Assembly: GCF_008830185.1 (NCBI RefSeq)
Contig: NZ_WAGX01000005.1
Coordinates: 372,001-436,000 of the forward strand
Direction: 5' to 3'
Length of the DNA: 64,000 nt
Origin: Candidatus Galacturonatibacter soehngenii
GTDB lineage: Bacteria > Bacillota > Clostridia > Lachnospirales > Lachnospiraceae
A program made the translations under genes and the position numbers. Shown here in pieces: positions 13,523 through 24,647 of this stretch (positions are counted from its first letter, which is position 1; the number at the start of each line of letters is the position of its first letter). Below the pieces are notes generated by a model that saw nothing but the letters and a program-made list of their open reading frames with translations, was not told the origin of the DNA and did not search any database.

Positions 13523-14206
13523 CTATTCAGACCGACTCATAAGCCAAGTTGCAAGTTCAAATTGAAATTCATTGTCGATGTCAATTGACTCCTCCTCTTT
13601 CATGAGATATGCGTATGTATTCTCCCCATAAAAATCTTTTGCTTTCATAAAAAACTCTGTAGTAGCTATATAAATAGCACCATTGATTCGATATTGCATT
13701 ACGCTATCTTGCCTTCTTTTTCTTTTGTGCAAACAATCCGTTTGAATTCTTCCCTTTGCGTCTAGAGAAACATGTAAAAAAGATGGGTGTTCCACTTTAC
13801 AAACACTTACTAAAGCATCCGCTTTTTTCTCTACTACTATCTGTGCACTTTCAATTATGTGACGAACTTTTCTAAGGGGGGATGTAGGTTGTAAAAGCAT
13901 AAAATACGTGAAGTCTTTTCCTTGATTATGATATTGGTTTAGTACTTCTAGAATTACTTCATTGGAGAAAGCCGTATCACTTGCAAGCTCTAAAGACCTT
14001 AAAAATGGCACACTTGCACCATATTGAATTGCTATTTCAGCATAAGAAGCGGAATCTGTTGATACAATTATCTCATCAAAAATCTGTGATTTTTTGCATG
14101 CCTCTATGGTATAGGCTATCAGTGGCTTGTTATTTATTTGTTTAATATTTTTATCTGGTATGCCTTTTGAACCACTTCTTGCAGGTATTATTGCTAAAAA
14201 ATTCAT
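13523..14206 (-). CDS. legF: CMP-legionaminic/CMP-sialic acid synthetase
   Basis: 227-residue cytidylyltransferase that activates a nonulosonic acid with CTP. The N-terminal nucleotide-binding signature IIPARSGSKGIPDKNIKQI, then IVSTDSASYAEIA and LLQPTSPLR, are diagnostic of the NeuA/LegF/PseF family. Length is normal for the single-domain form (about 225-235). It is the last gene of the operon, seven bases after the hydrolase gene and just before the shared terminator. With legB, legC, legH, legG, legI and the PtmE-like gene upstream, legionaminic acid is the likeliest substrate, though the family alone does not separate sialic, pseudaminic and legionaminic acids. Confidence 0.88.
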   Translation of the reverse strand: MNFLAIIPARSGSKGIPDKNIKQINNKPLIAYTIEACKKSQIFDEIIVSTDSASYAEIAIQYGASVPFLRSLELASDTAFSNEVILEVLNQYHNQGKDFTYFMLLQPTSPLRKVRHIIESAQIVVEKKADALVSVCKVEHPSFLHVSLDAKGRIQTDCLHKRKRRQDSVMQYRINGAIYIATTEFFMKAKDFYGENTYAYLMKEEESIDIDNEFQFELATWLMSRSE

Positions 14207-14213
14207 ACATTTA

Positions 14214-15380
14214 TCAATCCTTTTCCTGTTTTAATTGATAAAAACCCTTTTTCAATTGAATCCCTTGATTTAGGTTTTGTTTGATAATATTTATTATATT
14301 CTTACTGGTATTTTCTTTATAATAAGGATTATCTCCTTTTTCATTCTTCCAATCGTGAGTGATTGCATGGTGTATTCCTCTAGCTATTTCCTTAGCGGTT
14401 GGCTTTGAATTAATTACAAAGTCAGGCTTAATTCTTCCTTCTTGTCGTTCTCCAATGTTAACGACAGGTATTCTTAGATAAGGTACTTCCAAAATGCCAC
14501 TTGAAGAATTGCCAATTACCGCCTTGGCGTATTTGACAAGACTAAAATAGCGTAGGCTTCCAAGAGATGAAAAGACCATGGCTCTGGCTTTATTTTTTAA
14601 TATATAAGTGTCAATTTTTTTATTGATAATATCCCCACCAGCATCAGAATTACTTCTTGTAAAAATGATTTGATAATCCACAAACGAATCTAAGGCCAAT
14701 AATAACTCTTTGATTTGATATTTTGTCTCCTTCTCATCTAGGGTCATAGGATGGTAGGTAACCACCAGATATGGCTCATGAAGTGTGATTGCTAAACAAG
14801 TTTCTAATTCCTCTCTAGAAAGTAATGACAATCGTGTTATATTTTCAATTCCTAATGCTCCTACCTGATACACACGTTTTGGGTCTTCTCCTAGCTGAAT
14901 GACACGTCTTTGATATTCATTGGCGCAGGTAAAATGCAGATAGCTCATTTTCGTAATTGCATGACGCATGCAGTCATCGATACTTCCTTTAGTTATTTCA
15001 CCACCATGTATATGTGCAATAGGAATGTTACAGATACAAGCTGCCACTGCCGCAGATAATATCTCATATCGATCTCCCAATAAAATAACCATATCTGGTT
15101 TCATTCGCTCATATGCATCTCCAAAAGAAAGTAAGCCAAGACCTGTTGATTTACATATACCTGTTTTTGTATCTGTTGCCAAATTCATTTCTATTTTTTC
15201 TTGTATCGAAAATCCATCTTTTATAATCTCTTGCTCTGTTATTCCATATCTTGTGTCCAGATGCATCCCTGCAACAATTAGTAAAAGCTCACACTCTTTG
15301 TCTTCAAGGATTCTTAACATCACAGGCTTTAACAAGCTATATTCCGCTCTACTTCCTGTCACCACACAAAGCTTCTTCAC
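14214..15380 (-). CDS. legG: NDP-N,N'-diacetylbacillosamine 2-epimerase (hydrolysing)
   Basis: 388-residue member of the UDP-GlcNAc 2-epimerase (hydrolysing) family: NeuC/LegG type. Visible signatures are CVVTGSRAEYSLLKPVM at the N-terminus, ILLGDRYEILSAAVAA, HIHGGEITKGSIDD and GNSSSGILEVPYL. It removes the nucleotide and epimerises C2 to give the free hexose condensed by LegI. The start is GTG at 15380, overlapping the stop of legI by four bases (GTGA). Length fits the family (about 370-390). NeuC (UDP-GlcNAc substrate) is the alternative, but the accompanying dehydratase and aminotransferase favour LegG. Confidence 0.85.
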   Translation of the reverse strand: MKKLCVVTGSRAEYSLLKPVMLRILEDKECELLLIVAGMHLDTRYGITEQEIIKDGFSIQEKIEMNLATDTKTGICKSTGLGLLSFGDAYERMKPDMVILLGDRYEILSAAVAACICNIPIAHIHGGEITKGSIDDCMRHAITKMSYLHFTCANEYQRRVIQLGEDPKRVYQVGALGIENITRLSLLSREELETCLAITLHEPYLVVTYHPMTLDEKETKYQIKELLLALDSFVDYQIIFTRSNSDAGGDIINKKIDTYILKNKARAMVFSSLGSLRYFSLVKYAKAVIGNSSSGILEVPYLRIPVVNIGERQEGRIKPDFVINSKPTAKEIARGIHHAITHDWKNEKGDNPYYKENTSKNIINIIKQNLNQGIQLKKGFYQLKQEKD

Positions 15381-16378
15381 TCTTTGATCCTCTCATCCTT
15401 TTCATAATCTATTTGTGCCTTTCTACCAAGTATCTCATTGATTCTCATAGGGGTAATTCCCTCTCCGACTCGTTTGACGCCGATGTTTTCGAATGTAAAC
15501 GTATCCCCTTGTTTGATTGGTCTTGTCGCAACTAGATATTTTCTTACCAATTTTTTATTTTGTTGTTCCTCCTCTGTCAGTGTTTTCTCTCCATTTCCAA
15601 GTGCTTGTTCCACTCGTCGAATCGAATTCACATAATTCTTAAATTCATTGGGCTCCATACTAACTCTATGGTCTGGCCCATTCCATTCCTTGTTAAGCGT
15701 AATGTGTTTTTCAATTACAGTTGCTCCCATTGCTACCGCGGCTAGACCTGCCTCGTATCCGATGGTATGATCTGAGAATCCAACTTGTTTTAAAAACGTA
15801 GTACGAAGTGATTCCATTACTCGTAAATTTACCTCTGATAGTTTTGTGGGATAAGAGCTAATACAATGCAAAAGGATAATTTGTCTTTGTATATGATTGC
15901 TTTCTAGTAATTCTATTGCATCCTTAATTTCATCAAAGCTAGCCATGCCAGTTGATAAAATGATATCTTGTTTTAGGTAAGATAGTCTTTTTAATAGCAA
16001 ATAATTCGTAATCTCTCCAGAAGGAATTTTGAGTATTTGAACGCCTAGTTGTTCTAGATATTCATAGCTTTCTTCCTCAAAGGCTGACGATAAGAACTGT
16101 ATGTTTTTACTCTTACAGTACCAAAAAAGTTCTTCCATATCTTTTGCTGACAGCTCAAGTTTTTTAAGCATATCAAATTGTGAATCATCACAACCCGTAT
16201 TCCTCTTTTGATATTTTGTCTTTTGTAGCGTAGGAACAGCTAATTGCTCCGTGTGATAAAATTGAAACTTAACCGCGTCTGCTTTTGCATCACAGGCCAT
16301 ATCAACTAAACGCTTAGCCAAATTCAAATCGCCATTGTGATTAACCCCTGCCTCAGCAATTATCATTACAGGTTTCAA
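15377..16378 (-). CDS. legI: N,N'-diacetyllegionaminate synthase
   Basis: 333-residue NeuB-family synthase condensing a hexose with phosphoenolpyruvate. A TIM barrel (about 1-260) shows IIAEAGVNHNGDLNLAKRLVD, LSTGMASFDEI, GFSDHTIGYEAGLAAVAMGA and EKHITL. A C-terminal SAF/antifreeze-like domain (about 275-330) shows KYLVATRPIKQGD. I retain the TTG start at 16378 because AAGGAGG lies nine bases upstream. ATG at 16366 is the alternative and would remove four residues. The start lies inside the end of the acetyltransferase gene (26-base overlap), so the two are translationally coupled. Confidence 0.9.
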   Translation of the reverse strand: MKPVMIIAEAGVNHNGDLNLAKRLVDMACDAKADAVKFQFYHTEQLAVPTLQKTKYQKRNTGCDDSQFDMLKKLELSAKDMEELFWYCKSKNIQFLSSAFEEESYEYLEQLGVQILKIPSGEITNYLLLKRLSYLKQDIILSTGMASFDEIKDAIELLESNHIQRQIILLHCISSYPTKLSEVNLRVMESLRTTFLKQVGFSDHTIGYEAGLAAVAMGATVIEKHITLNKEWNGPDHRVSMEPNEFKNYVNSIRRVEQALGNGEKTLTEEEQQNKKLVRKYLVATRPIKQGDTFTFENIGVKRVGEGITPMRINEILGRKAQIDYEKDERIKE

Positions 16379-17018
16379 TCCTTCTTACCTCCTTTACTGG
16401 ACTTCCATAATATATCCTATTTGCCTTTAAATCTTTTAATACAAGGCTGCCTGCACCTACAATTACATTTTCTTCTATTCTTATATTTTGCAAAAGGGTG
16501 GAATTGGCCCCAATGTGTGTATTGGCTTTCACCCATACATTGCCACACAATACACTTCCAGGTGCCAAATGAACAAAATCCTCAATACAAGTCTCGTGCT
16601 CCATAATTACACCTGTATTCACAATACATACATTACCAAGCACAGCTTTTGCATTGATGATAGCGCCTTTTCCAATGTAATTTCCCTCTCCCATTTTTAT
16701 ATCTTTTGATACAACCGCATCTTTGTCTATAATGTTTGGAAAATGATATCCTGCTTTTTTACACCTGTCATATAACGCTCTCCTTACCTTTGCATTTGCA
16801 ATTCCTCCAACTGTAATCACAGCAAACTGGATTCCTTTCTGGTAGAAAGCGTCTAATTCATCATCTACCCCTATGATTTTTACTCCTGCTACGCACGTAT
16901 TCACTTTTTCTTTTTTATCAAGTATACCTGCTATCTCATATCTTTTTAAATGCTTTATTGAGTCAATTACACTGATCGCATGTGCACCCCCGCCAATTAA
17001 AAGAACCTTTTTTTCCAT
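16353..17018 (-). CDS. legH: Sugar O/N-acetyltransferase (PglD/NeuD-type)
   Basis: 221-residue acetyltransferase. An N-terminal Rossmann-like part, KVLLIGGGAHAISVIDSIK, binds the UDP- or GDP-sugar, and a left-handed beta-helix of hexapeptide repeats (from about residue 95) ends in IYYGSPVKEVRRI. PglD/LegH enzymes N-acetylate the 4-amino group of the bacillosamine precursor using acetyl-CoA. In this operon it should act after LegC and before LegG. It lies one base downstream of the PtmE-like gene and overlaps legI. NeuD-type O-acetyltransferase activity is the alternative. Confidence 0.8.
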   Translation of the reverse strand: MEKKVLLIGGGAHAISVIDSIKHLKRYEIAGILDKKEKVNTCVAGVKIIGVDDELDAFYQKGIQFAVITVGGIANAKVRRALYDRCKKAGYHFPNIIDKDAVVSKDIKMGEGNYIGKGAIINAKAVLGNVCIVNTGVIMEHETCIEDFVHLAPGSVLCGNVWVKANTHIGANSTLLQNIRIEENVIVGAGSLVLKDLKANRIYYGSPVKEVRRIETCNDNC

Positions 17019-17019
17019 T

Positions 17020-18063
17020 CTATACTAATCTTTCCATCATATTTTTCATTTCCCTAAACTCACCCATGTCAAGCCAGTTACTCCCCATAATTGGATAAGC
17101 TCCGATTCTTTCATTATTTTGTTTCAATAACTTTATTAAATCTGTCATATCAAAATATTGATTCTTTGGAATATATTTTCTTACCTCTTCATTCAAAACA
17201 TAACATCCAGTATTCACTAATAATTCATAGCAGGGCTTTTCTTCAATTTCTTTTACACTTCCATGCTGTCCCAATTCAATCACTCCATATGGTATTTCAA
17301 AGCTTTTCATAGCTGTAACAATTGTGATTTTATTATTGTTTTCCTTGTGATATGACATCAAATCTAAATAATTAATATCCACAATTACATCGCAGTTGCA
17401 AACAAAAAAGCTTTTTTCTTTTGGAATATCTAGTAGTTTTAACGCACCCGCAGTACCCAGCGGTTTGTCTTCTTCTATAAAGTAAGGACAATACTTGGTT
17501 TGTTCTGAAAAATATGCTTTGATCATTTCTTTTTTGTAGCAAATTGTTAAAAAGAACTTATGATACCCATAGTTACTAAATTTTTTCATAATTCGTTCTA
17601 CAATGGGAATATCACCAATTGGAATCAATGGCTTTGGAATTATTTTCGTATATGGATATAATCGACTCCCTTTTCCACCTGCCATAATTACAATCGGTGC
17701 CTCATTTACTCTTTCACAAAAAGATTGTTGGTTACTCATATCATTCCAAAATAAAACGTTGATTACCCTATTATTCTCATCTACCAAAGGAACGCCTTCT
17801 ATCTTATTTTGCCTCATGAATTCAAATGCCAAATGTTCCTCCTCTTTTTTTAAAGAAAGAGGATTTTCATTCATAATATAAGAAACAGGCAAGGATAGAT
17901 TTCCTCCCTTTAGTATCCATCTTCTTATATCCCCATCTGTTACAATACCTAAAAGCTCTCCTTTTTCTACTATGATAAGAAGTTTTTTCGCTGTCTGATC
18001 AAGTACTTTTATAACATTTACAATGGACATACTTTTCTCAATTAATAAACTAGATACCTCCAT
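17020..18063 (-). CDS. CBS-domain sugar nucleotidyltransferase (PtmE-like)
   Basis: 347 residues: two CBS motifs (about 1-115; GIVTDGDIRRWILKGGN is a clear CBS phrase) fused to a nucleotidyltransferase domain (about 120-347; IVIMAGGKGSRLYPYTKIIPKPLIPIG). This architecture is that of PtmE in Campylobacter jejuni, which makes GDP-GlcN/GlcNAc feeding a GDP-based legionaminic acid route. Its presence suggests the pathway here starts from a GDP-sugar rather than UDP-GlcNAc. The CBS pair probably senses adenosine nucleotides. It lies between legC and legH with gaps of 13 bases and one base. It is not a UTP-glucose-1-phosphate type because of the CBS fusion. Confidence 0.82.
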   Translation of the reverse strand: MEVSSLLIEKSMSIVNVIKVLDQTAKKLLIIVEKGELLGIVTDGDIRRWILKGGNLSLPVSYIMNENPLSLKKEEEHLAFEFMRQNKIEGVPLVDENNRVINVLFWNDMSNQQSFCERVNEAPIVIMAGGKGSRLYPYTKIIPKPLIPIGDIPIVERIMKKFSNYGYHKFFLTICYKKEMIKAYFSEQTKYCPYFIEEDKPLGTAGALKLLDIPKEKSFFVCNCDVIVDINYLDLMSYHKENNNKITIVTAMKSFEIPYGVIELGQHGSVKEIEEKPCYELLVNTGCYVLNEEVRKYIPKNQYFDMTDLIKLLKQNNERIGAYPIMGSNWLDMGEFREMKNMMERLV

Positions 18064-18076
18064 ACTGCTCCCTCTT

Positions 18077-19228
18077 TCAAGTGATCTTACTTAATACATC
18101 TGCTATGTAGTCTATCTCACCGTAAGTAAGGGTAACGCTACAAGGTATATTTATGATACGCTCCCAATAAAAATAAGCTTTTTCAATATAAAAGGATTGA
18201 TTACTTTGATACATTTTTTGCATATGACAAAGCTTCCAGATTGGTCTCGTCTGAATTTCATATCTTTTCAATTCTTCTACAAAAAATTCTTTGGTGGAAT
18301 TTGTTTGAGATAACAAAAGACTATAGAACCAGTAATTACTTCTGACGTCCTTTTGAAAAGGAAGAAGCTTAACGTGTTTCATTGATTCTAATTTTTTCTT
18401 GTAATAGGTGTAATTATCGTTCTTAATTTTAATAAAGGATTCTAACTGCTCTAACTGCGCAACACCCAAGGCAGCTTGCAGATTTGTCATTCGATAATTA
18501 TAACCAACGTCATTGTGAATATAATTCAAATCATCGTCCTTTGCCTGTGTTGATAAATATCTAGCTCTTTGAACCATTTTATCATCTTTGGCAGTTAACA
18601 TTCCTCCGCCCCCTGTTGTAATAATCTTGTTGCCATTAAAGGAAAATGCACCAAAGTCCCCCATTGTTCCTGAAAATTGATTGCATAATTCCCCTTCGCA
18701 ATAGAAGCTTCCAATACTTTCTGTTGCATCTTCAATCAACTTTAGATCGTATTGTTTTGCTAATTCGGATAAACGTTTCATGTTTGCCATATTGCCAAAT
18801 ACATGTACTGCAATGATTGCCTTAATATAACGATTCGAACTTTTATTTTTTATCCCTTTAGAAGTTTGCATACATTCTTGTTGAAGGAACTGTTCTAGCT
18901 TATCACAATCAATGGTAAGATAATCGTCACAGTCCATAAAAACAGGTTCTGCACCTAGATATTTTATGGGATTAATGGTCGCTATAAAAGTAAGGGTCGG
19001 AACAATCACTTCATTATTTCGTTCAACCCCAGCCAATCGTAGCGCCAAATGAATTGCTGCAGTTCCACTTTGTAATGCCACACAACTTTTTACCTTTAGA
19101 TACTTTTCTAATTCTTGCTCAAATCTTATGACGTACCCTCCTGCACTTGAAACCCAGGTTTTATTAAGTGCATCAAGTACATAGCGCTCCTCATTTCCTT
19201 TTAAACAAGGAACTGATAAAGGAATCAT
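18077..19228 (-). CDS. legC: PLP-dependent sugar aminotransferase
   Basis: 383-residue DegT/DnrJ/EryC1-family enzyme. SAGGYVIRFEQELEKYL, VALQSGTAAIHLALRL, EDATESIGSFY and the PLP lysine in FSFNGNKIITTGGGGML are visible. It transfers an amino group from glutamate to C4 of the 4-keto-6-deoxy sugar made by LegB. The neighbour just upstream is the dehydratase. Length is typical (about 370-400). The LegC assignment rests on the full gene set; PseC or PglE would look similar. Confidence 0.87.
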   Translation of the reverse strand: MIPLSVPCLKGNEERYVLDALNKTWVSSAGGYVIRFEQELEKYLKVKSCVALQSGTAAIHLALRLAGVERNNEVIVPTLTFIATINPIKYLGAEPVFMDCDDYLTIDCDKLEQFLQQECMQTSKGIKNKSSNRYIKAIIAVHVFGNMANMKRLSELAKQYDLKLIEDATESIGSFYCEGELCNQFSGTMGDFGAFSFNGNKIITTGGGGMLTAKDDKMVQRARYLSTQAKDDDLNYIHNDVGYNYRMTNLQAALGVAQLEQLESFIKIKNDNYTYYKKKLESMKHVKLLPFQKDVRSNYWFYSLLLSQTNSTKEFFVEELKRYEIQTRPIWKLCHMQKMYQSNQSFYIEKAYFYWERIINIPCSVTLTYGEIDYIADVLSKIT

Positions 19229-19252
19229 ATACTCCCTCTTTTCAATCTAAGT

Positions 19253-20233
19253 TTATATATTATATTGATCTGCTTTATAATTTGTTAAATTATTTTTAAT
19301 CCAATGAATTGTCTCACACAATCCCTCTTCCAACGTAAAGCTTTGACTCCATTCTGTTAGATCTAATATTTTTTTATTTGCCCCCAAAAGTCTTACTACC
19401 TCACTCTTTTCTGGCCTCATTCTTTGTTGGTTAATTTTTATTTTTGCAGCAGGATTAATCAACTTTATTAATTTATTTGCTAAATCCTTCATACTAATTT
19501 CAGTCTGACTTGCAATATTTACTTCTTCTCCAAGTGTCTTATCACTTTTTTCTATCTCTACAAAACCCTTTACGGTATCTAAAACGTAATTTAAATCTCT
19601 TGTTGTATCTAGATTACCTAGTTCAATTTCTTCTTTTCCGACCAAAAGCTGTGTAATGATTGTAGGAATAATGGCCCTCGCTGATTGTCTTGGCCCATAC
19701 GTATTAAATGGGCGAACAATTGTTACAGGTGTTGCAAAACTCTTGTAAAAAGCTTCTGCTAACCGATCCGCACCAATTTTGGTGGCGGAATAGGGCGATT
19801 GTCCTTGAAATGGATGCTTTTCATCGATTGGAACATAACAGGCACTTCCATATACTTCTGATGTAGAGGTAATAAGCACCTTATTTGTTTCTAACTCTCT
19901 TGCTGCCTGTAATATATTTAATGTACCTTTTATATTTGTATCTACGTAAGAATCTGGAGAATGGTAGCTAAATGGAATTGCAATTAGTGCCGCCAAATGA
20001 AATACACTATCCACACCTTTCATGGCAGCTCGCACACCGTTTGGATCACGAATATCACCCGCTTGTATCTCAATCTCACGGATTTTATCTGAATCTAAAT
20101 ATTCCAAACAACCAAGAGAATTATAAGAATTATAGTAGATAAAGGCTCTTACATCATAGCCTTTCCTTAATAAATATTCGGTCAGATGACTTCCAATAAA
20201 TCCATCTGCCCCCGTTACCAATACTTTTTTCAT
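19253..20233 (-). CDS. legB: NDP-sugar 4,6-dehydratase
   Basis: 326-residue extended SDR enzyme. It shows the NAD-binding motif TGADGFIGSHL (about 6-16) and the catalytic YSATK with its accompanying active-site residues (YGSACYVPIDE, TSTSEVYG). It would convert NDP-GlcNAc to the 4-keto-6-deoxy intermediate, the first committed step of legionaminic acid synthesis. I start at ATG 20233; the preceding GTG (20236) would be only four bases from the GGAG. First of the seven sugar-pathway genes, 24 bases after the last small beta-sandwich gene, so apparently in the same operon. Confidence 0.87.
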   Translation of the reverse strand: MKKVLVTGADGFIGSHLTEYLLRKGYDVRAFIYYNSYNSLGCLEYLDSDKIREIEIQAGDIRDPNGVRAAMKGVDSVFHLAALIAIPFSYHSPDSYVDTNIKGTLNILQAARELETNKVLITSTSEVYGSACYVPIDEKHPFQGQSPYSATKIGADRLAEAFYKSFATPVTIVRPFNTYGPRQSARAIIPTIITQLLVGKEEIELGNLDTTRDLNYVLDTVKGFVEIEKSDKTLGEEVNIASQTEISMKDLANKLIKLINPAAKIKINQQRMRPEKSEVVRLLGANKKILDLTEWSQSFTLEEGLCETIHWIKNNLTNYKADQYNI

Positions 20234-20257
20234 CACCAGACTCCTTATTTGCCTTGC

Positions 20258-20524
20258 TTATGATTCATGATAATTGTCAAATACCTTTATTTTATACCCA
20301 CTTAATTTATCTGTAATATAAAAACAAAACTCTCCAAGTTCATTGGTAAGTGTATGCGCAAGGTAAACACAATAGCTTTCCTCCTCTTGTAATTCTTCAT
20401 TAAACTCTACTATTATTTTATCTAGTATTACTATTGCATTTATGATGGGACGGTATGCTATATCATGAACAAATCCTCTTACTAGTAAGGTATCAATATC
20501 GTTTCCATTAAAAAAATCATTCAT
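20258..20524 (-). CDS. Small beta-sandwich-like protein D
   Basis: 88 residues, no signal peptide or membrane segment. It matches the shared pattern of the neighbouring small proteins: VRGFVHD...PIINAIVILDKI, a variable loop, AHTLTNELGEFCFYI and YKIKVFDNY. The pattern resembles carboxypeptidase-regulatory-like / transthyretin-type beta-sandwich domains, but this copy is the most divergent. It overlaps the preceding gene (20517-20825) by eight bases and is followed by legB after 24 bases. Function unknown. I infer from context that it is a structural or acceptor protein for the sugar made by the operon. Confidence 0.7.
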   Translation of the reverse strand: MNDFFNGNDIDTLLVRGFVHDIAYRPIINAIVILDKIIVEFNEELQEEESYCVYLAHTLTNELGEFCFYITDKLSGYKIKVFDNYHES

Positions 20525-20825
20525 CCTTTATTCCTTCCAATGGTTCATATGCATTTAGTAAATAGTCAGTGCAATTGTTTTTTTCTACAACGAATGCAAA
20601 TTCACCTTGGTAATTGGTTAAAACATAACCCATTTTTACCCTACAATTTCCATTATGAATAGCTACTACTTCAATTACTGCACCTTCAATTGCTTTGCGT
20701 TCAGGACTATAAATGGTTCCTATAATCAATGCATCCTTCGTACGTCTTATTGAAATATCCTTTTGTAATATGGTAATATGTGACATTTCCTCTGGAGTAA
20801 TTATGATTTCCCTATAACCACTCAT
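20517..20825 (-). CDS. Small beta-sandwich-like protein C
   Basis: 102 residues, cytoplasmic by sequence (no leader). The shared pattern is very clear: IIGTIYSPERKAIEGAVIEVVAI, a variable loop, MGYVLTNYQGEFAFVV and YLLNAYEPLEG. The order (G-T/I-Y, P-x-x-G-A-x-V-x-V, G-Y-V-x-T-x-x-G-E-F, YEPLE) fits a carboxypeptidase-regulatory-like domain of seven or eight strands. GGAG lies upstream of the ATG at 20825. It overlaps the next gene. Not recognised as a named family; a role in a surface structure is inferred only from the glycosylation genes beside it. Confidence 0.75.
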   Translation of the reverse strand: MSGYREIIITPEEMSHITILQKDISIRRTKDALIIGTIYSPERKAIEGAVIEVVAIHNGNCRVKMGYVLTNYQGEFAFVVEKNNCTDYLLNAYEPLEGIKDE

Positions 20826-20837
20826 ATCCTCTCCTTC

Positions 20838-21143
20838 TTACCTTTCTAACGGTTCATAAACGATTAATTCATATAGCATATAAGGTTTGGCGTTGATAGA
20901 AAACAAATACCCTCCATCTTCACCAGTAATTACATAACCAATAGTCTCAATCCTATTATCCTTTAAGTTTCGTTGAATTACTTGTACAACAGCTCCTATA
21001 CATGGTACGTTATTTGATTGATACACAGTGCCTTTTACAATTTGAAATTCTTTACACTCCAATTGCATCTGTACCCTATTTTCTCCATGACAACGTAACT
21101 TATCTCCTCTTATTAAAAGGGATGTATTTCTACGATAAGGCAT
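20838..21143 (-). CDS. Small beta-sandwich-like protein B
   Basis: 101 residues, no signal peptide. A basic N-terminus (MPYRRNTSLLIRGDKL) precedes the common core VKGTVYQSNNVPCIGAVVQVIQR, a charged loop, IGYVITGEDGGYLFSI and YELIVYEPLER. The core can be aligned by eye to proteins A, C, D and E of this operon, so these are diverged duplicates. Contains two cysteines. Located between the 73-residue protein and protein C, with 12-base and 3-base gaps, consistent with one transcript. Function unknown. Confidence 0.75.
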   Translation of the reverse strand: MPYRRNTSLLIRGDKLRCHGENRVQMQLECKEFQIVKGTVYQSNNVPCIGAVVQVIQRNLKDNRIETIGYVITGEDGGYLFSINAKPYMLYELIVYEPLER

Positions 21144-21146
21144 CGG

Positions 21147-21368
21147 TTAGCTACTTTCTTTCTCAGTTTCAAAAGTATACTCCGCTTTTTGTGTATAAAC
21201 CGTCACATTTAATTCTTGTTTTTCCTTGGTATCTTCAGCCGAAATTACATTTCCAGCTTGCTCTTTTCCATTTACTATCATTTTATTTATTTTAACCTCT
21301 TTATACTTTGTTTTTAACTCTTTCGCTATTTTATCATTATCAATTGACATAATTTGAATTTCACTCAT
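21147..21368 (-). CDS. Small hypothetical protein (73 residues)
   Basis: 73-residue polar protein without membrane segments or cysteines, rich in Lys and Glu. Unlike its neighbours, it shows no beta-sandwich G-Y/T-G-E-Y pattern; the middle (YKEVKINKMIVNGKEQAGNV) suggests a small alpha/beta fold. A GGAGG ribosome site lies upstream of the ATG at 21368, and the gene sits 36 bases after the Maf gene and three bases before protein B, so it belongs to the same operon. Function unknown; an accessory or chaperone for the glycosyltransferase is only a guess. Confidence 0.65.
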   Translation of the reverse strand: MSEIQIMSIDNDKIAKELKTKYKEVKINKMIVNGKEQAGNVISAEDTKEKQELNVTVYTQKAEYTFETEKESS

Positions 21369-21404
21369 GTTACATCCTCCTACCTTTTCTACTTTTACTA
21401 TATG

Positions 21405-23123
21405 CTACTCATAAAATTCTATTACCGTTTTAGATATTAATTCTTTTGCTATATGAAGCATTTCTTTTAATTTTTCAAAATAAACGTAGAACGCATTTGC
21501 TTGGTGTTGTAAGTCAGATGTTAGCTTGTTGTAGTCTTTTGCTGACATATAAAAAGTATCTTTTTTCATATCATATAAAAATTCCGTCAAATAACCTCCT
21601 AAGTATCTGGCTTTTAGCGAGTTTTCAAATTCATTTATGATAGTAAGCATATACAATACTTTTTGTAAATCAATATCATCTTCCTCAACTTCTATTAAAG
21701 ATTTAGTCTGTTTTTGTGAAATAATTTCACTGCTTAATTCAATTCCCTGATCTGCCTTTATCAAAAAATAATCAATCACTTGATATATTTCATCAAGAAT
21801 CACTTCACTATCAATCGCTACATTCTTTTCTTCTTGGAATGACATTTTTTTGACTCTTATTATTTCTTTTTCTAATATCTCGTTTAGTGGTTTGAAACTA
21901 GCCCCTTTGATTTTTGCACCATAAGAGCAGTTGATAAATTCGACTCTTTTTGACTCCTGATACAAATCAATATATTCCTCAAGTCGCCTTCTAAAATGAT
22001 CGAGTGTTGGTGACGTTAAAATGTCATTTCCAAATACATCTTTTACTTTTAGCTTTAAAAACTGTGATAACTCTTTGTCAAAAGTAAAACTTGCACTCTT
22101 TGCATGATGCTTTTGATCGGTATATGCAAAATCCTGCCCAACCAAAATAATTGGTGAACATCCCATCATATTTGCTATGTCAATACATGAATGCGAGACA
22201 GAACCGCCACAATAGATTCCCTTTAAGTGAGAAAGTGACTCTATGGTAGTGGATAATAGAATTGGGATATATACCTTATCTCCTTTATACTCTTTCATTA
22301 GAAACCGATTGCTATACTCATAAAATGCCAATGGTACATCTAGGTGTAGATAGTCTTTCATCATATCATAATTCGCATCAATTGGGTCAACCGAGACAAT
22401 CATATCGGGGATAATTCCTTGCTTTACCAATGTTCCTACCGTTCTACTTCCTGTAATAATAAAATACTCTTTCAACTTATCCCGAAACAAAAGCATTTCC
22501 TGAATGTTTTTATCTAAAGACGGACCTGCCGATATAACAAGAGCAGGAACATTTAAATTCCTATGATAATATGACTGAATTAACGTGGTTTCATTTAATA
22601 TTTTTAGATTGGCTATCATATTTTGTAAGAAAACTTCTTTAAATCTCTTTGCTAGACTTAATTGCGAGGAGGCATTTATTAGCGTTGCATTTAAATGCTC
22701 AATTAACACATCGTATTCTTTTTTATAAATTGTCTCATACTGTCCAAACGAATGAAAATAAACATTATTAATGTTTTTATAATTGATAGATTCAGCAAAA
22801 ATAATTTTCATTACTTTTTCATCAAAATAAACCAATTGTATCTTATCATCCAATTCTTTGGAATAACGTAAGAATATTTTTTTATTTGGTTCAAAGATTA
22901 TTACTTTGTTATTTTTACAGATAATTTTTTTTAATTGATTGAGATATTCACCAGTATCTAAGCCAAATATAAAGATTAAAGAATCATATCTGATATCATC
23001 TAACGTATTGAATAGATGATTTATTTCTTGTTTATAATTCAATCTATTTGCCAAAAAAAAATATTTATGATCCTTTTTTATTCGATAAACATGATATCCG
23101 TCTAATGATTGAAACTTTTTCAT
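21405..23123 (-). CDS. Maf-type (DUF115) glycosyltransferase
   Basis: 572-residue motility-accessory-factor family protein. The DUF115 core (about residues 190-340) shows LVISAGPSLDKNI, GTLVKQGIIPDMIVSVDP, GGSVSHSCIDIANMMGCSPIILVGQDFAYTDQKHHA, the family's signature. Maf enzymes transfer CMP-activated nonulosonic acids (pseudaminic or legionaminic) to Ser/Thr of flagellin in the cytoplasm. No flagellar gene is near. Instead the gene is embedded among small beta-sandwich protein genes and followed by a complete legionaminic-acid pathway, so it probably uses CMP-Leg on a non-flagellin acceptor. N- and C-terminal extensions are diverged. No signal peptide. Confidence 0.85.
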   Translation of the reverse strand: MKKFQSLDGYHVYRIKKDHKYFFLANRLNYKQEINHLFNTLDDIRYDSLIFIFGLDTGEYLNQLKKIICKNNKVIIFEPNKKIFLRYSKELDDKIQLVYFDEKVMKIIFAESINYKNINNVYFHSFGQYETIYKKEYDVLIEHLNATLINASSQLSLAKRFKEVFLQNMIANLKILNETTLIQSYYHRNLNVPALVISAGPSLDKNIQEMLLFRDKLKEYFIITGSRTVGTLVKQGIIPDMIVSVDPIDANYDMMKDYLHLDVPLAFYEYSNRFLMKEYKGDKVYIPILLSTTIESLSHLKGIYCGGSVSHSCIDIANMMGCSPIILVGQDFAYTDQKHHAKSASFTFDKELSQFLKLKVKDVFGNDILTSPTLDHFRRRLEEYIDLYQESKRVEFINCSYGAKIKGASFKPLNEILEKEIIRVKKMSFQEEKNVAIDSEVILDEIYQVIDYFLIKADQGIELSSEIISQKQTKSLIEVEEDDIDLQKVLYMLTIINEFENSLKARYLGGYLTEFLYDMKKDTFYMSAKDYNKLTSDLQHQANAFYVYFEKLKEMLHIAKELISKTVIEFYE

Positions 23124-23162
23124 AATGCCTCCAGATATTTATTATTAATACTTATCATAAGC

Positions 23163-23465
23163 TTACACTTCTTCTAAAGCTGCATAGGCAATTAACTTAT
23201 ATTCTCTATTCGCAACATATGGTATCGATACACCATAAGTGCCATCCGCAATGGTAAAGGTCACTCCAAGCCTCTTTTCCTCTATAGGAAAGATTGTATT
23301 ATTGATTAAAACTATTTCAACAGCGGCATTGGCTAACGGCTCCCCATTGGGGCTATACACAATTCCTTTTACAAAAAAATATTGATAAGCAGCTAACTGA
23401 ATATCCTTTGTAACGATTTGGGAACAGATAATTTGTCTGCCTCTTAATGTCACTTTTGACGGCAT
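23163..23465 (-). CDS. Small beta-sandwich-like protein A (carboxypeptidase-regulatory-like)
   Basis: 100 residues with no leader. The clearest example of the domain in this operon: FVKGIVYSPNGEPLANAAVEIVLI, a loop, LGVTFTIADGTYGVSIP and YKLIAYAALEE. This spacing is that of carboxypeptidase-regulatory-like / SpaA-type beta-sandwich domains, usually found as extracellular repeat domains but here standing alone. AAGGAGAG lies about six bases upstream of the ATG at 23465. Located 39 bases upstream of the Maf gene. Function unknown; candidate acceptor or scaffold for the sugar. Confidence 0.78.
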   Translation of the reverse strand: MPSKVTLRGRQIICSQIVTKDIQLAAYQYFFVKGIVYSPNGEPLANAAVEIVLINNTIFPIEEKRLGVTFTIADGTYGVSIPYVANREYKLIAYAALEEV

Positions 23466-23500
23466 GGCTATCTCTCCTTAGCTTTTACATTGTTAATAAG

Positions 23501-23559
23501 GAAAGAAAGAGCGCATAAAAATGATTCATCTTTAACATTTGTTATACGTTCTTTCTTTC
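23501..23559 (-). other. Long imperfect hairpin between operon genes E and A
   Basis: GAAAGAAAGAACGTATAAC and its imperfect complement GCGCTCTTTCTTTC bracket about 25 bases. It is not followed by a proper T-run, so it may be an RNA-processing or stabilising hairpin, or a weak attenuator, after the first gene. Confidence 0.5.
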
Positions 23560-23569
23560 TATTCTTTAA

Positions 23570-23857
23570 TTAGTTATCATAGAATTTCAGTAGTATTCGT
23601 ACATCTGCCCTACAAGTAATTCCATATTCACCAGTTGCATTGGTAAACGTAAAGCGATTTGCATTTCTAGTCGTGGTTGTGTTAGTATCCTCCCAGACAG
23701 CAACAGCACCACTTCTTAATACGGTATCTGAATACTCTGCAGTACCTTTTACTAAAACAAGACCCCAATTACTGGTTGAAACATTCTTTGTGATCATAGT
23801 TCCATCAACTGCCGCAGATGCGGAGATTAATGCAGGTTTTGGTCTATAATTAGGCAT
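23570..23857 (-). CDS. Small beta-sandwich-like protein E with Thr-rich loop
   Basis: 95 residues, no signal peptide. Same general pattern (VLVKGTAEYSDTVLRSGAVAVWED, loop, FTFTNATGEYGITC, ILLKFYDN), with a Thr/Asn-rich variable loop, TNTTTTRNANRF, in place of the charged loop of its paralogues. Such a loop would be a natural O-glycosylation site for the co-transcribed Maf transferase; this is inference. First gene of the operon, with an excellent AAAGGAGG ribosome site and a sigma-K-like promoter upstream, so it is probably the most highly expressed product. The N-terminus (PNYRPKPALISASAAVDG) is Ala/Ser-rich. Confidence 0.75.
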   Translation of the reverse strand: MPNYRPKPALISASAAVDGTMITKNVSTSNWGLVLVKGTAEYSDTVLRSGAVAVWEDTNTTTTRNANRFTFTNATGEYGITCRADVRILLKFYDN

Positions 23858-23904
23858 AATGTTGCCTCCTTTTTTGAAAGCTTTTGAAATACGTATTTCT
23901 TATA

Positions 23905-23931
23905 TATAATATGTTTTCTTATAGAAAAAGT
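23905..23931 (-). promoter_or_regulatory. Sigma-K-like (mother-cell) promoter candidate of the Leg/Maf operon
   Basis: On the minus strand, AC (23931-23930), a 16-base spacer and CATATTATA (23913-23905) match the late mother-cell consensus AC-N16/17-CATANNNTA at every fixed position. Transcription would begin near 23898, about 40 bases before the start of protein E. The region is AT-rich, so a chance match or an ordinary sigma-A promoter cannot be excluded. Confidence 0.45.
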
Positions 23932-24101: not shown

Positions 24102-24647
24102 TTATTTTATGATAGGTATCGTTGTTAGCAAAAGAACTAAAAAAACTACATTTGCCATTGTAAATACGCTAATATATTTTTTTGCATCATGATTATGGAC
24201 TCCCACATAATATCGATAAGATATCAAGCTTGCCATTGATGCAATCAATGTTCCAAGCCCCCCTATATTAACTCCAATTAAAAGCTCTACATAATCCTTG
24301 GTAAAACCTGACAGTAACACAGCCGCTGGTACATTACTTATGAACTGGCTTGAAATTACTGCAAAAAGAATTGTATTATCAGCCATTCTTCTTTGAATTA
24401 ATGTTTGCACAAACTCCATATGTTGCATATTGCCAATAAAGATAAAAAACGCAATAAATGTAACCAACAAGCTGTAATCCACTTTTTTCATTAAATGTTT
24501 GTCACTTATCATTGCACCAAAAATGACAATTACAGTTAACACCACATAAGAAATCAAATGTAAAACTGTACCTATGCATAGGGCAAATAAAAAAACATAC
24601 AATAGAAAACGTCTCTTATCCTCTACTTCTTTGATTGAAAGTTGCAT
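24102..24647 (-). CDS. ArsB/NhaD (SLC13-like) anion permease, C-terminal half only
   Basis: 181 residues with about five hydrophobic helices. SSQFISNVPAAVLLSGF and IGVNIGGLGTLIASMASLISYRYY are the conserved second-repeat motifs of the ion transporter superfamily (ArsB/NhaD/CitM). Intact members have 370-430 residues and two such repeats; here the first half is missing, and only 52 bases separate it from the nitroreductase stop upstream. It is therefore most likely a gene remnant, although the frame is open and has a weak ribosome site. It could only work if half-size proteins can dimerise. Confidence 0.6.
   Translation of the reverse strand: MQLSIKEVEDKRRFLLYVFLFALCIGTVLHLISYVVLTVIVIFGAMISDKHLMKKVDYSLLVTFIAFFIFIGNMQHMEFVQTLIQRRMADNTILFAVISSQFISNVPAAVLLSGFTKDYVELLIGVNIGGLGTLIASMASLISYRYYVGVHNHDAKKYISVFTMANVVFLVLLLTTIPIIK

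Follow-up and report, generated by a model that had tools for sequence, protein, structure and literature searches.

A putative SigmaK-controlled operon linking a Maf-type glycosyltransferase and small proteins to a nonulosonic-acid pathway in Candidatus Galacturonatibacter soehngenii and other Clostridia

Introduction

What does a Maf-type glycosyltransferase do in an operon that is rich in sugar-pathway genes and small proteins and contains no flagellar gene? The question is raised by 14 genes of Candidatus Galacturonatibacter soehngenii (Lachnospiraceae), which lie in a stretch of 64,000 nucleotides (assembly GCF_008830185.1, contig NZ_WAGX01000005.1, positions 372,001-436,000) that is called the window here and whose numbering is used for the operon. 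In the available text of PMC13317340, Maf is described as acting on flagellin in the cytoplasm. For the operon, a first-pass annotation had proposed a dedicated, secretion-independent glycoprotein system of the spore surface. In this study, the operon is read as a sporulation-specific, SigmaK-controlled nonulosonic-acid protein-glycosylation system of the mother cell in which co-encoded small proteins would be the acceptors, and we give this reading a probability of about two in three. The earlier proposal was made more likely by conserved synteny, by a SigmaK-like promoter and by the distance between the operon Maf and the flagellar Mafs of the same genome; its claims on the acceptor role of the small proteins and on the spore location are still what we infer.

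Results

Organization of the operon

The 14 genes all lie on the minus strand, from 23857 down to 13523, in the order S1-S2-Maf-S3-S4-S5-S6-LegB-LegC-PtmE-LegH-LegI-LegG-LegF, in which S1 to S6 are the small proteins. The intergenic gaps range from -26 to +104 nucleotides (nt), in agreement with the run of closely spaced or overlapping genes described previously, and a purine-rich stretch resembling a ribosome-binding site precedes most of the starts. The features of the locus are as follows (aa, amino acids).

23905..23931, minus: SigmaK-like promoter AC-N16-CATATTATA upstream of S1 (motif scan)
23886..23899, strand not assigned: palindrome GAAATACGTATTTC directly after the -10 box (cross-locus comparison)
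23570..23857, minus: S1, 95 aa, Thr-rich, likeliest acceptor or major structural protein (16 aligned rows; composition)
23501..23559, minus: strong hairpin immediately 3' of S1, -20.8 kcal/mol (folding, shuffles)
23163..23465, minus: S2, 100 aa, TTR/CarboxypepD_reg-like predicted beta-sandwich (sub-threshold PF13620; predicted model)
21405..23123, minus: Maf-type glycosyltransferase, 572 aa, PF01973 core (140.5 bits, cut-off 34.6)
21147..21368, minus: S3, 73 aa, small, charged, directly downstream of Maf (17 aligned rows; adjacency)
20838..21143, minus: S4, 101 aa, beta-sandwich-like, contains Cys (sub-threshold match, alignment, composition)
20517..20825, minus: S5, 102 aa, beta-sandwich-like (sub-threshold match, alignment)
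20258..20524, minus: S6, 88 aa, beta-sandwich-like via alignment with S2/S4/S5
19253..20236, minus: LegB, NAD-dependent 4,6-dehydratase (TIGR04180, 475.3 bits, cut-off 475)
18077..19228, minus: LegC aminotransferase (TIGR04181, 484 bits, cut-off 420)
17020..18063, minus: PtmE-like sugar-1-phosphate nucleotidylyltransferase with CBS-like N-terminus (sub-cut-off matches only)
16353..17018, minus: LegH/NeuD-family acetyltransferase (TIGR03570, 199.6 bits, cut-off 160.8)
15377..16378, minus: LegI/NeuB-type nonulosonate synthase (TIGR03569, 438.4 bits, cut-off 399.65)
14214..15380, minus: LegG/NeuC-type hydrolysing 2-epimerase (TIGR03568, 454 bits, cut-off 235.9)
13523..14206, minus: LegF-like CMP-nonulosonate cytidylyltransferase (TIGR03584, PseF, 176.0 bits, under the cut-off of 205.7)

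The GDP-type legionaminic acid pathway comprises LegB, LegC, PtmE, LegH, LegG, LegI and LegF. All seven steps were present, as the first-pass annotation had stated. The NCBIfam cut-offs were reached by five models, those of the LegB (by only 0.3 bits), LegC, NeuD, NeuB and NeuC types, the Leg names of the NeuD, NeuB and NeuC homologues being assigned from the pathway context. The LegF-like protein stayed below the PseF cut-off, and PtmE, to which no specific model matched, was assigned by its architecture, a CBS-like N-terminus joined to a nucleotidyltransferase. Most of these gene names also appear in the available part of PMC13317340. The product of the pathway would be CMP-legionaminic acid.

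Conservation of the operon in Lachnospiraceae

In a sample of 397 genomes of the family, an alignment search with the S proteins matched 10, of which four, the source genome included, held multi-gene clusters, and in each of the four a Maf lay between S2 and S4. The six remaining matches, all weak and situated within frames of 343 to 2016 aa, were judged to be hits to unrelated domains; in G144, a genome from the same genus, the alignment search gave no S-protein match. A contig scan with the Maf alignment then yielded at least 16 loci, in Lacrimispora, Lachnotalea, [Clostridium] aerotolerans, [Clostridium] fimetarium, a Hungatella metagenome-assembled genome (MAG) and others. Together with the first four clusters these gave 20 annotated rows, three of them repeats, and thus 17 distinct loci including the window. 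The full 14-gene block was found in identical order in 12 of these 17, so that the gene order recurs in other Lachnospiraceae. Among the other five, L047 and L049 were cut by contig ends, L056 had broken frames, and L032 and L034 lacked one or two genes. Because this order is shared by other genera, the arrangement is not due to chance. The first pass had also considered that the small genes might never accompany a Maf elsewhere; they did so in all 20 rows (17 loci), which were found via Maf or S proteins. Among the 22 loci of other families, which were found via S1, they did so in 21. Two of the MAGs (L049, L051) bear a Paenibacillaceae label and have Mafs that hardly differ from the Lacrimispora ones; they are probably misnamed bins.

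A SigmaK-like promoter and a hairpin around S1

The SigmaK consensus consists of an AC element at -35 and CATANNNTA at -10, with a spacing of 15-17 nt. The motif AC-N15..17-CATANNNTA was found upstream of S1 in all 17 testable rows, equal to 15 distinct loci of the Lachnospiraceae type, at 52 to 74 nt ahead of the start used, with a per-sequence chance of 0.4 to 2.9 percent in shuffles. As a control, the strict motif occurred within 140 nt upstream of 3 of 247 open reading frames (ORFs), which were ATG-started, at least 120 aa long and taken from the window and ten of the loci. According to the available text on Clostridium difficile, the AC element at -35 separates SigK from SigE promoters, and CATATAAT is given as an example of the -10 element (PMC3789822). 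SigK is encoded in the genome (304.9 bits against a cut-off of 252, and 2 bits below the cut-off of a second SigK model), as are SigE and SpoIVA. Moreover, SpoIVA was present in 26/26 genomes with S-protein hits and in 18/28 without (Fisher 0.0008), a weak comparison in which the genomes without hits all belong to one family, are not a random draw and are not matched by family. These data support control of the operon by SigmaK in the late mother cell.

Right behind the -10 box stands the palindrome GAAATACGTATTTC, which was exact in 14 of the 17 rows and in 13 of the 15 distinct loci. It is possibly an operator or a hairpin at the 5' end of the mRNA. Its 12-base core AAATACGTATTT has two sites in the source genome, one at the operon and one inside a coding frame; a regulon-wide element was therefore rejected, and the palindrome appears to be operon-specific.

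One qualification applies to the earlier statement that no strong terminator lies within the operon, namely the hairpin of -20.8 kcal/mol directly 3' of S1, which is followed by no clear T-run. Hairpins with a strength of at least -14 kcal/mol within 110 nt 3' of S1 were found in 23 of 25 loci, compared with 53 of 300 when these stretches were shuffled. The counts for hairpins of that strength after other genes were 1/25 for S2, 0/25 for Maf, 2/22 for S3 and 4/25 for S4. S1 is also richest in Ser and Thr and heads the gene order in loci of the window type, and the hairpin behind it suggests that S1 is produced in excess.

The operon Maf and the flagellar Mafs of the genome

The operon Maf contains the PF01973 core domain and, as a single query, matched no PDB chain. 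A joint profile of spore-type and flagellar Mafs matched PDB 5mu5 (E 2.5e-10), deposited as an uncharacterised protein, which we take to be a Maf structure. The genome contains three flagellin-domain matches, at C8 and at C5:1.436 Mb; all lie outside the window, and the absence of flagellar genes from the operon reported in the first pass was borne out. Two further Mafs are encoded in the genome, one 3' of a flagellin gene and separated from it by one small gene, and the other a single gene away from a flagellin. The operon Maf shares 23 and 24 percent identity with these two, compared with 46-47 percent with three Mafs of other families in the same alignment. In the Maf tree, the two flagellar Mafs formed long branches outside the rest. 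Furthermore, a NeuB-like gene and a CMP-transferase-like gene lie about 13 kb from the second flagellar Maf, and therefore flagellar glycosylation may have its own sugar donor. In the glycan region near one flagellin (L104 6081-8636, L008), a NeuB-like gene encodes 500 aa, longer than usual, and a CMP-transferase-like gene 339 aa.

Clusters in other Clostridia families and exchange of the sugar type

Searches with the S1 profile matched 5 of 391 genomes of the class, 14 of 194 genomes of one further family and 8 of 71 of another, and in a phylum-wide sample of 398 genomes matched only the source genome. The distribution of the system is sparse. Twenty-two loci of the two further families were annotated, of which 21 carried a Maf with S genes; the other, L122, is a short contig carrying S genes alone. 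Genes of a nonulosonate pathway were found near 20 of the 21 Maf clusters; in L113 these amount to a fragment of PseI plus a weakly matching dehydratase, and L107 has none. Ten clusters carried pseudaminate-type instead of legionaminate-type genes. The equivalog cut-offs were reached by PseB, PseC, PseG and PseI of L119 and by PseG and PseI of L065, and the other Pse labels denote similarity to these genes. In the Maf tree, all ten pseudaminate-linked Mafs fell into one clade (100/98) with hosts from two families. The legionaminate label required three changes, compared with a shuffled mean of 11.2. One clade across two host families is as expected if the Maf uses the co-encoded CMP-sugar.

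In these families the strict promoter motif preceded 4 of 121 sugar-pathway and other neighbouring genes. It lay ahead of S3 or S3b in L065, L107, L108, L116 and L117, and in L117 ahead of S1 too.

In three pseudaminate-type clusters, a protein of 564-565 aa is encoded between S2 and S1 (L065 5762-7456, L118 10386-12083, L119 10356-12053); it is glycine-rich in L065. In one of the families, the loci L066, L067, L105, L106, L109, L110 and L123 have extra PIG-L-like, GNAT-like, FemAB-like or second DegT-like aminotransferase genes which, as named by resemblance, point to modified legionaminic acids.

The small proteins

In S2, S4 and S5 of the window, CarboxypepD_reg (PF13620) was matched below threshold. 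The same family was matched at E up to 0.1 by 22 of 24 S2/S4/S5 members, the best at 3.7e-7, whereas S1, S3 and S6 of the window gave no credible Pfam match. The structural model of S2 (pLDDT 78.8) predicts a beta-sandwich from residue 29 onward, and a fold search with it returned TTR, CnaB-like and macroglobulin domains with a middling best Z of 7.2; no fold more specific than a beta-sandwich is proposed for S2. The absence of endospore appendage (ENA) structures from its list of fold matches carries no information.

S1 gave no credible Pfam family among 14 members (E up to 1) and no credible PDB relative, and a profile match to OspA in PDB (E 0.03) was taken as chance. Profile comparison relates S1 distantly to the S2/S4/S5 group (probability 93). 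S1 has the highest content of Ser and Thr in the frames as called (mean 21.6 percent, compared with 15.6 in S2 and 8.3 to 14.2 in the others), the fewest charged residues of the S families, and conserved Ser/Thr columns in the aligned rows. These properties make S1 the likeliest candidate for the sugar acceptor or the major structural protein. Cys residues average about three each in S4 and S6. In the search of its own genome with the S-protein profile, S3 gave no match, and it appears different from the other S proteins; it is possibly a partner of the Maf, perhaps of a GlfM-like kind. A long tail, made up of about 20 five-residue repeats that contain ES, sets the S3 homologue of [Clostridium] fimetarium (L032 6462-7031) apart from the other 16 S3 rows.

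The small proteins had been described as lacking signal peptides. In agreement with this, no strongly hydrophobic N-terminus was found in S1-S5, and that of S6 is mildly hydrophobic (KD18 1.61). DUF3992 is an ENA domain. Neither DUF4183 nor DUF3992 was matched in the 14 S1 members (E up to 1) or the 24 S2/S4/S5 members (E up to 0.1), for which the scan listed 13 other families, and S3 and S6 gave no ENA-domain Pfam match in the window members.

Discussion

Taken together, the gene content, the conserved linkage, the SigmaK-like promoter, the separate flagellar Mafs and the replacement of one sugar pathway by another along with the corresponding Maf clade, all read from sequence, suggest the following mechanism. 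LegB to LegF would produce CMP-legionaminic acid in the mother cell, and the Maf, perhaps with S3 as a partner, would transfer the nonulosonate to Ser or Thr of the small proteins made alongside it, with the Thr-rich S1 as the most likely acceptor. Together with the Cys-bearing S2, S4, S5 and S6, S1 would assemble on the spore out of the cytosol of the mother cell, which would make a signal peptide, a flippase and an export apparatus all unnecessary. The outcome would be an outer layer or appendage with a negative charge and a hydrophilic character.

Several observations weigh against this reading. The AlphaFold model of S1 is poor (pLDDT 46.4) and unusable for prediction of a fold or of sites. 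Several of the 17 rows with the promoter are close relatives, many of the 247 control ORFs sit inside operons or overlap genes, and only 5 of 17 loci of the two other families (0.30 expected) have the strict motif ahead of S1. Hairpins as strong as that behind S1 also follow S5 (8/23) and S6 (7/21). The cluster of [Clostridium] fimetarium (L032) is without LegC, and that of one MAG (L034) without LegB and S6. In many clusters of the other families, S2 and not S1 leads the S genes, and L114, L115, L120 and L121 have no clear S1 at the locus, their genomes giving weak S1-profile matches (E 2e-7 to 9e-6). In addition, the Pse labels of L113, L116 and L117 are based on few genes, and the long branches of the Maf tree (L113, L114 and the flagellar rows) may have been falsely joined, as the program warned.

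A first alternative concerns the acceptor. The Maf and the sugar pathway might act in sporulation on a coat or appendage protein encoded elsewhere, with S1-S6 as scaffold or targeting proteins only; the Maf may act in trans, glycosylation of the S proteins is a proposal, and S3-S6 contain 8-14 percent Ser/Thr against 21.6 percent in S1. We consider this unlikely, since the S proteins and the Maf are linked across three families and S1 is rich in Ser/Thr with conserved Ser/Thr columns. The usual role of a Maf, in which the operon would provide legionaminic acid for flagellin, agrees with the three flagellin-domain matches and with the action of known Mafs in the available account (PMC13317340). 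There is little to recommend it for this genome, in which two other Mafs each lie one gene from flagellin genes, one of them about 13 kb from NeuB-like and CMP-transferase-like genes, and in which the operon has a SigmaK-like promoter and contains no flagellar gene. Delivery of the CMP-sugar to a capsule or spore polysaccharide, with the Maf and the S proteins as unrelated neighbours, seems very improbable to us: the 14 genes include no other glycosyltransferase, flippase or polymerase, and the Maf clade tracks the sugar type. An argument for it comes from Bacillus subtilis, for whose spore legionaminic acid the transferase and the acceptor are described as not known in the available text, and a crust-linked glycan is possible (PMC7439481).

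The protein-glycosylation system proposed here resembles three known systems in part. With the Maf-dependent flagellin glycosylation of Campylobacter, Aeromonas and Clostridium it shares a CMP-nonulosonate pathway and a Maf-family enzyme. It differs in having no linked flagellin or export gene, in its small beta-sandwich proteins and SigmaK-like promoter, and in a Maf only 23-24 percent identical to the flagellar Mafs of the same genome. Nonulosonic acids are known on flagella. On B. subtilis spores they have been known since 2020; there, according to the available part of the report, the sps pathway makes legionaminic acid in sporulation for the spore surface or crust, and its transfer was shown not to depend on SpsA or SpsB (PMC7439481). 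Synthesis during sporulation for the spore surface, which is proposed for the operon, would be common to both, and the available description of sps mentions no Maf or S-type proteins (PMC7439481). ENA fibres of the F-ENA type (DUF4183) are likewise built from small (about 10 kDa), mostly-beta subunits, and F-ENA-3 shows densities of putative O-glycosylation, whereas no linked Maf or nonulosonate pathway is mentioned for ENAs in the available text (PMC11952670). No published account of an operon with a Maf and S proteins was recognised from titles and the beginnings of abstracts, a coverage outside which most subscription journals and bioRxiv fall.

A Maf-type role has so far been known on flagella only, and here it would extend to small proteins of the spore surface. 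The odds seem even to us that the operon represents a new class of glycoprotein layer or appendage of Clostridia spores, in which Mafs would have been redeployed from flagella to sporulation, S1 and its kin would be the first non-flagellin acceptors of a Maf, delivery by the mother cell would be free of secretion, and the legionaminate or pseudaminate module would have been swapped between lineages together with a matching Maf. With a concrete candidate transferase and candidate acceptors that are small and easy to express, all encoded in a single conserved block, the operon makes cytosolic glycosylation of spore proteins directly testable. If Clostridia spores carry sialic-acid-like sugars, then adhesion, dispersal and host recognition could be affected.

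Upstream of the operon, at 24102-24647 of the window, lies a gene of 181 aa with a partial match to the citrate transporter model CitMHS, covering 198-310 of 336 positions.

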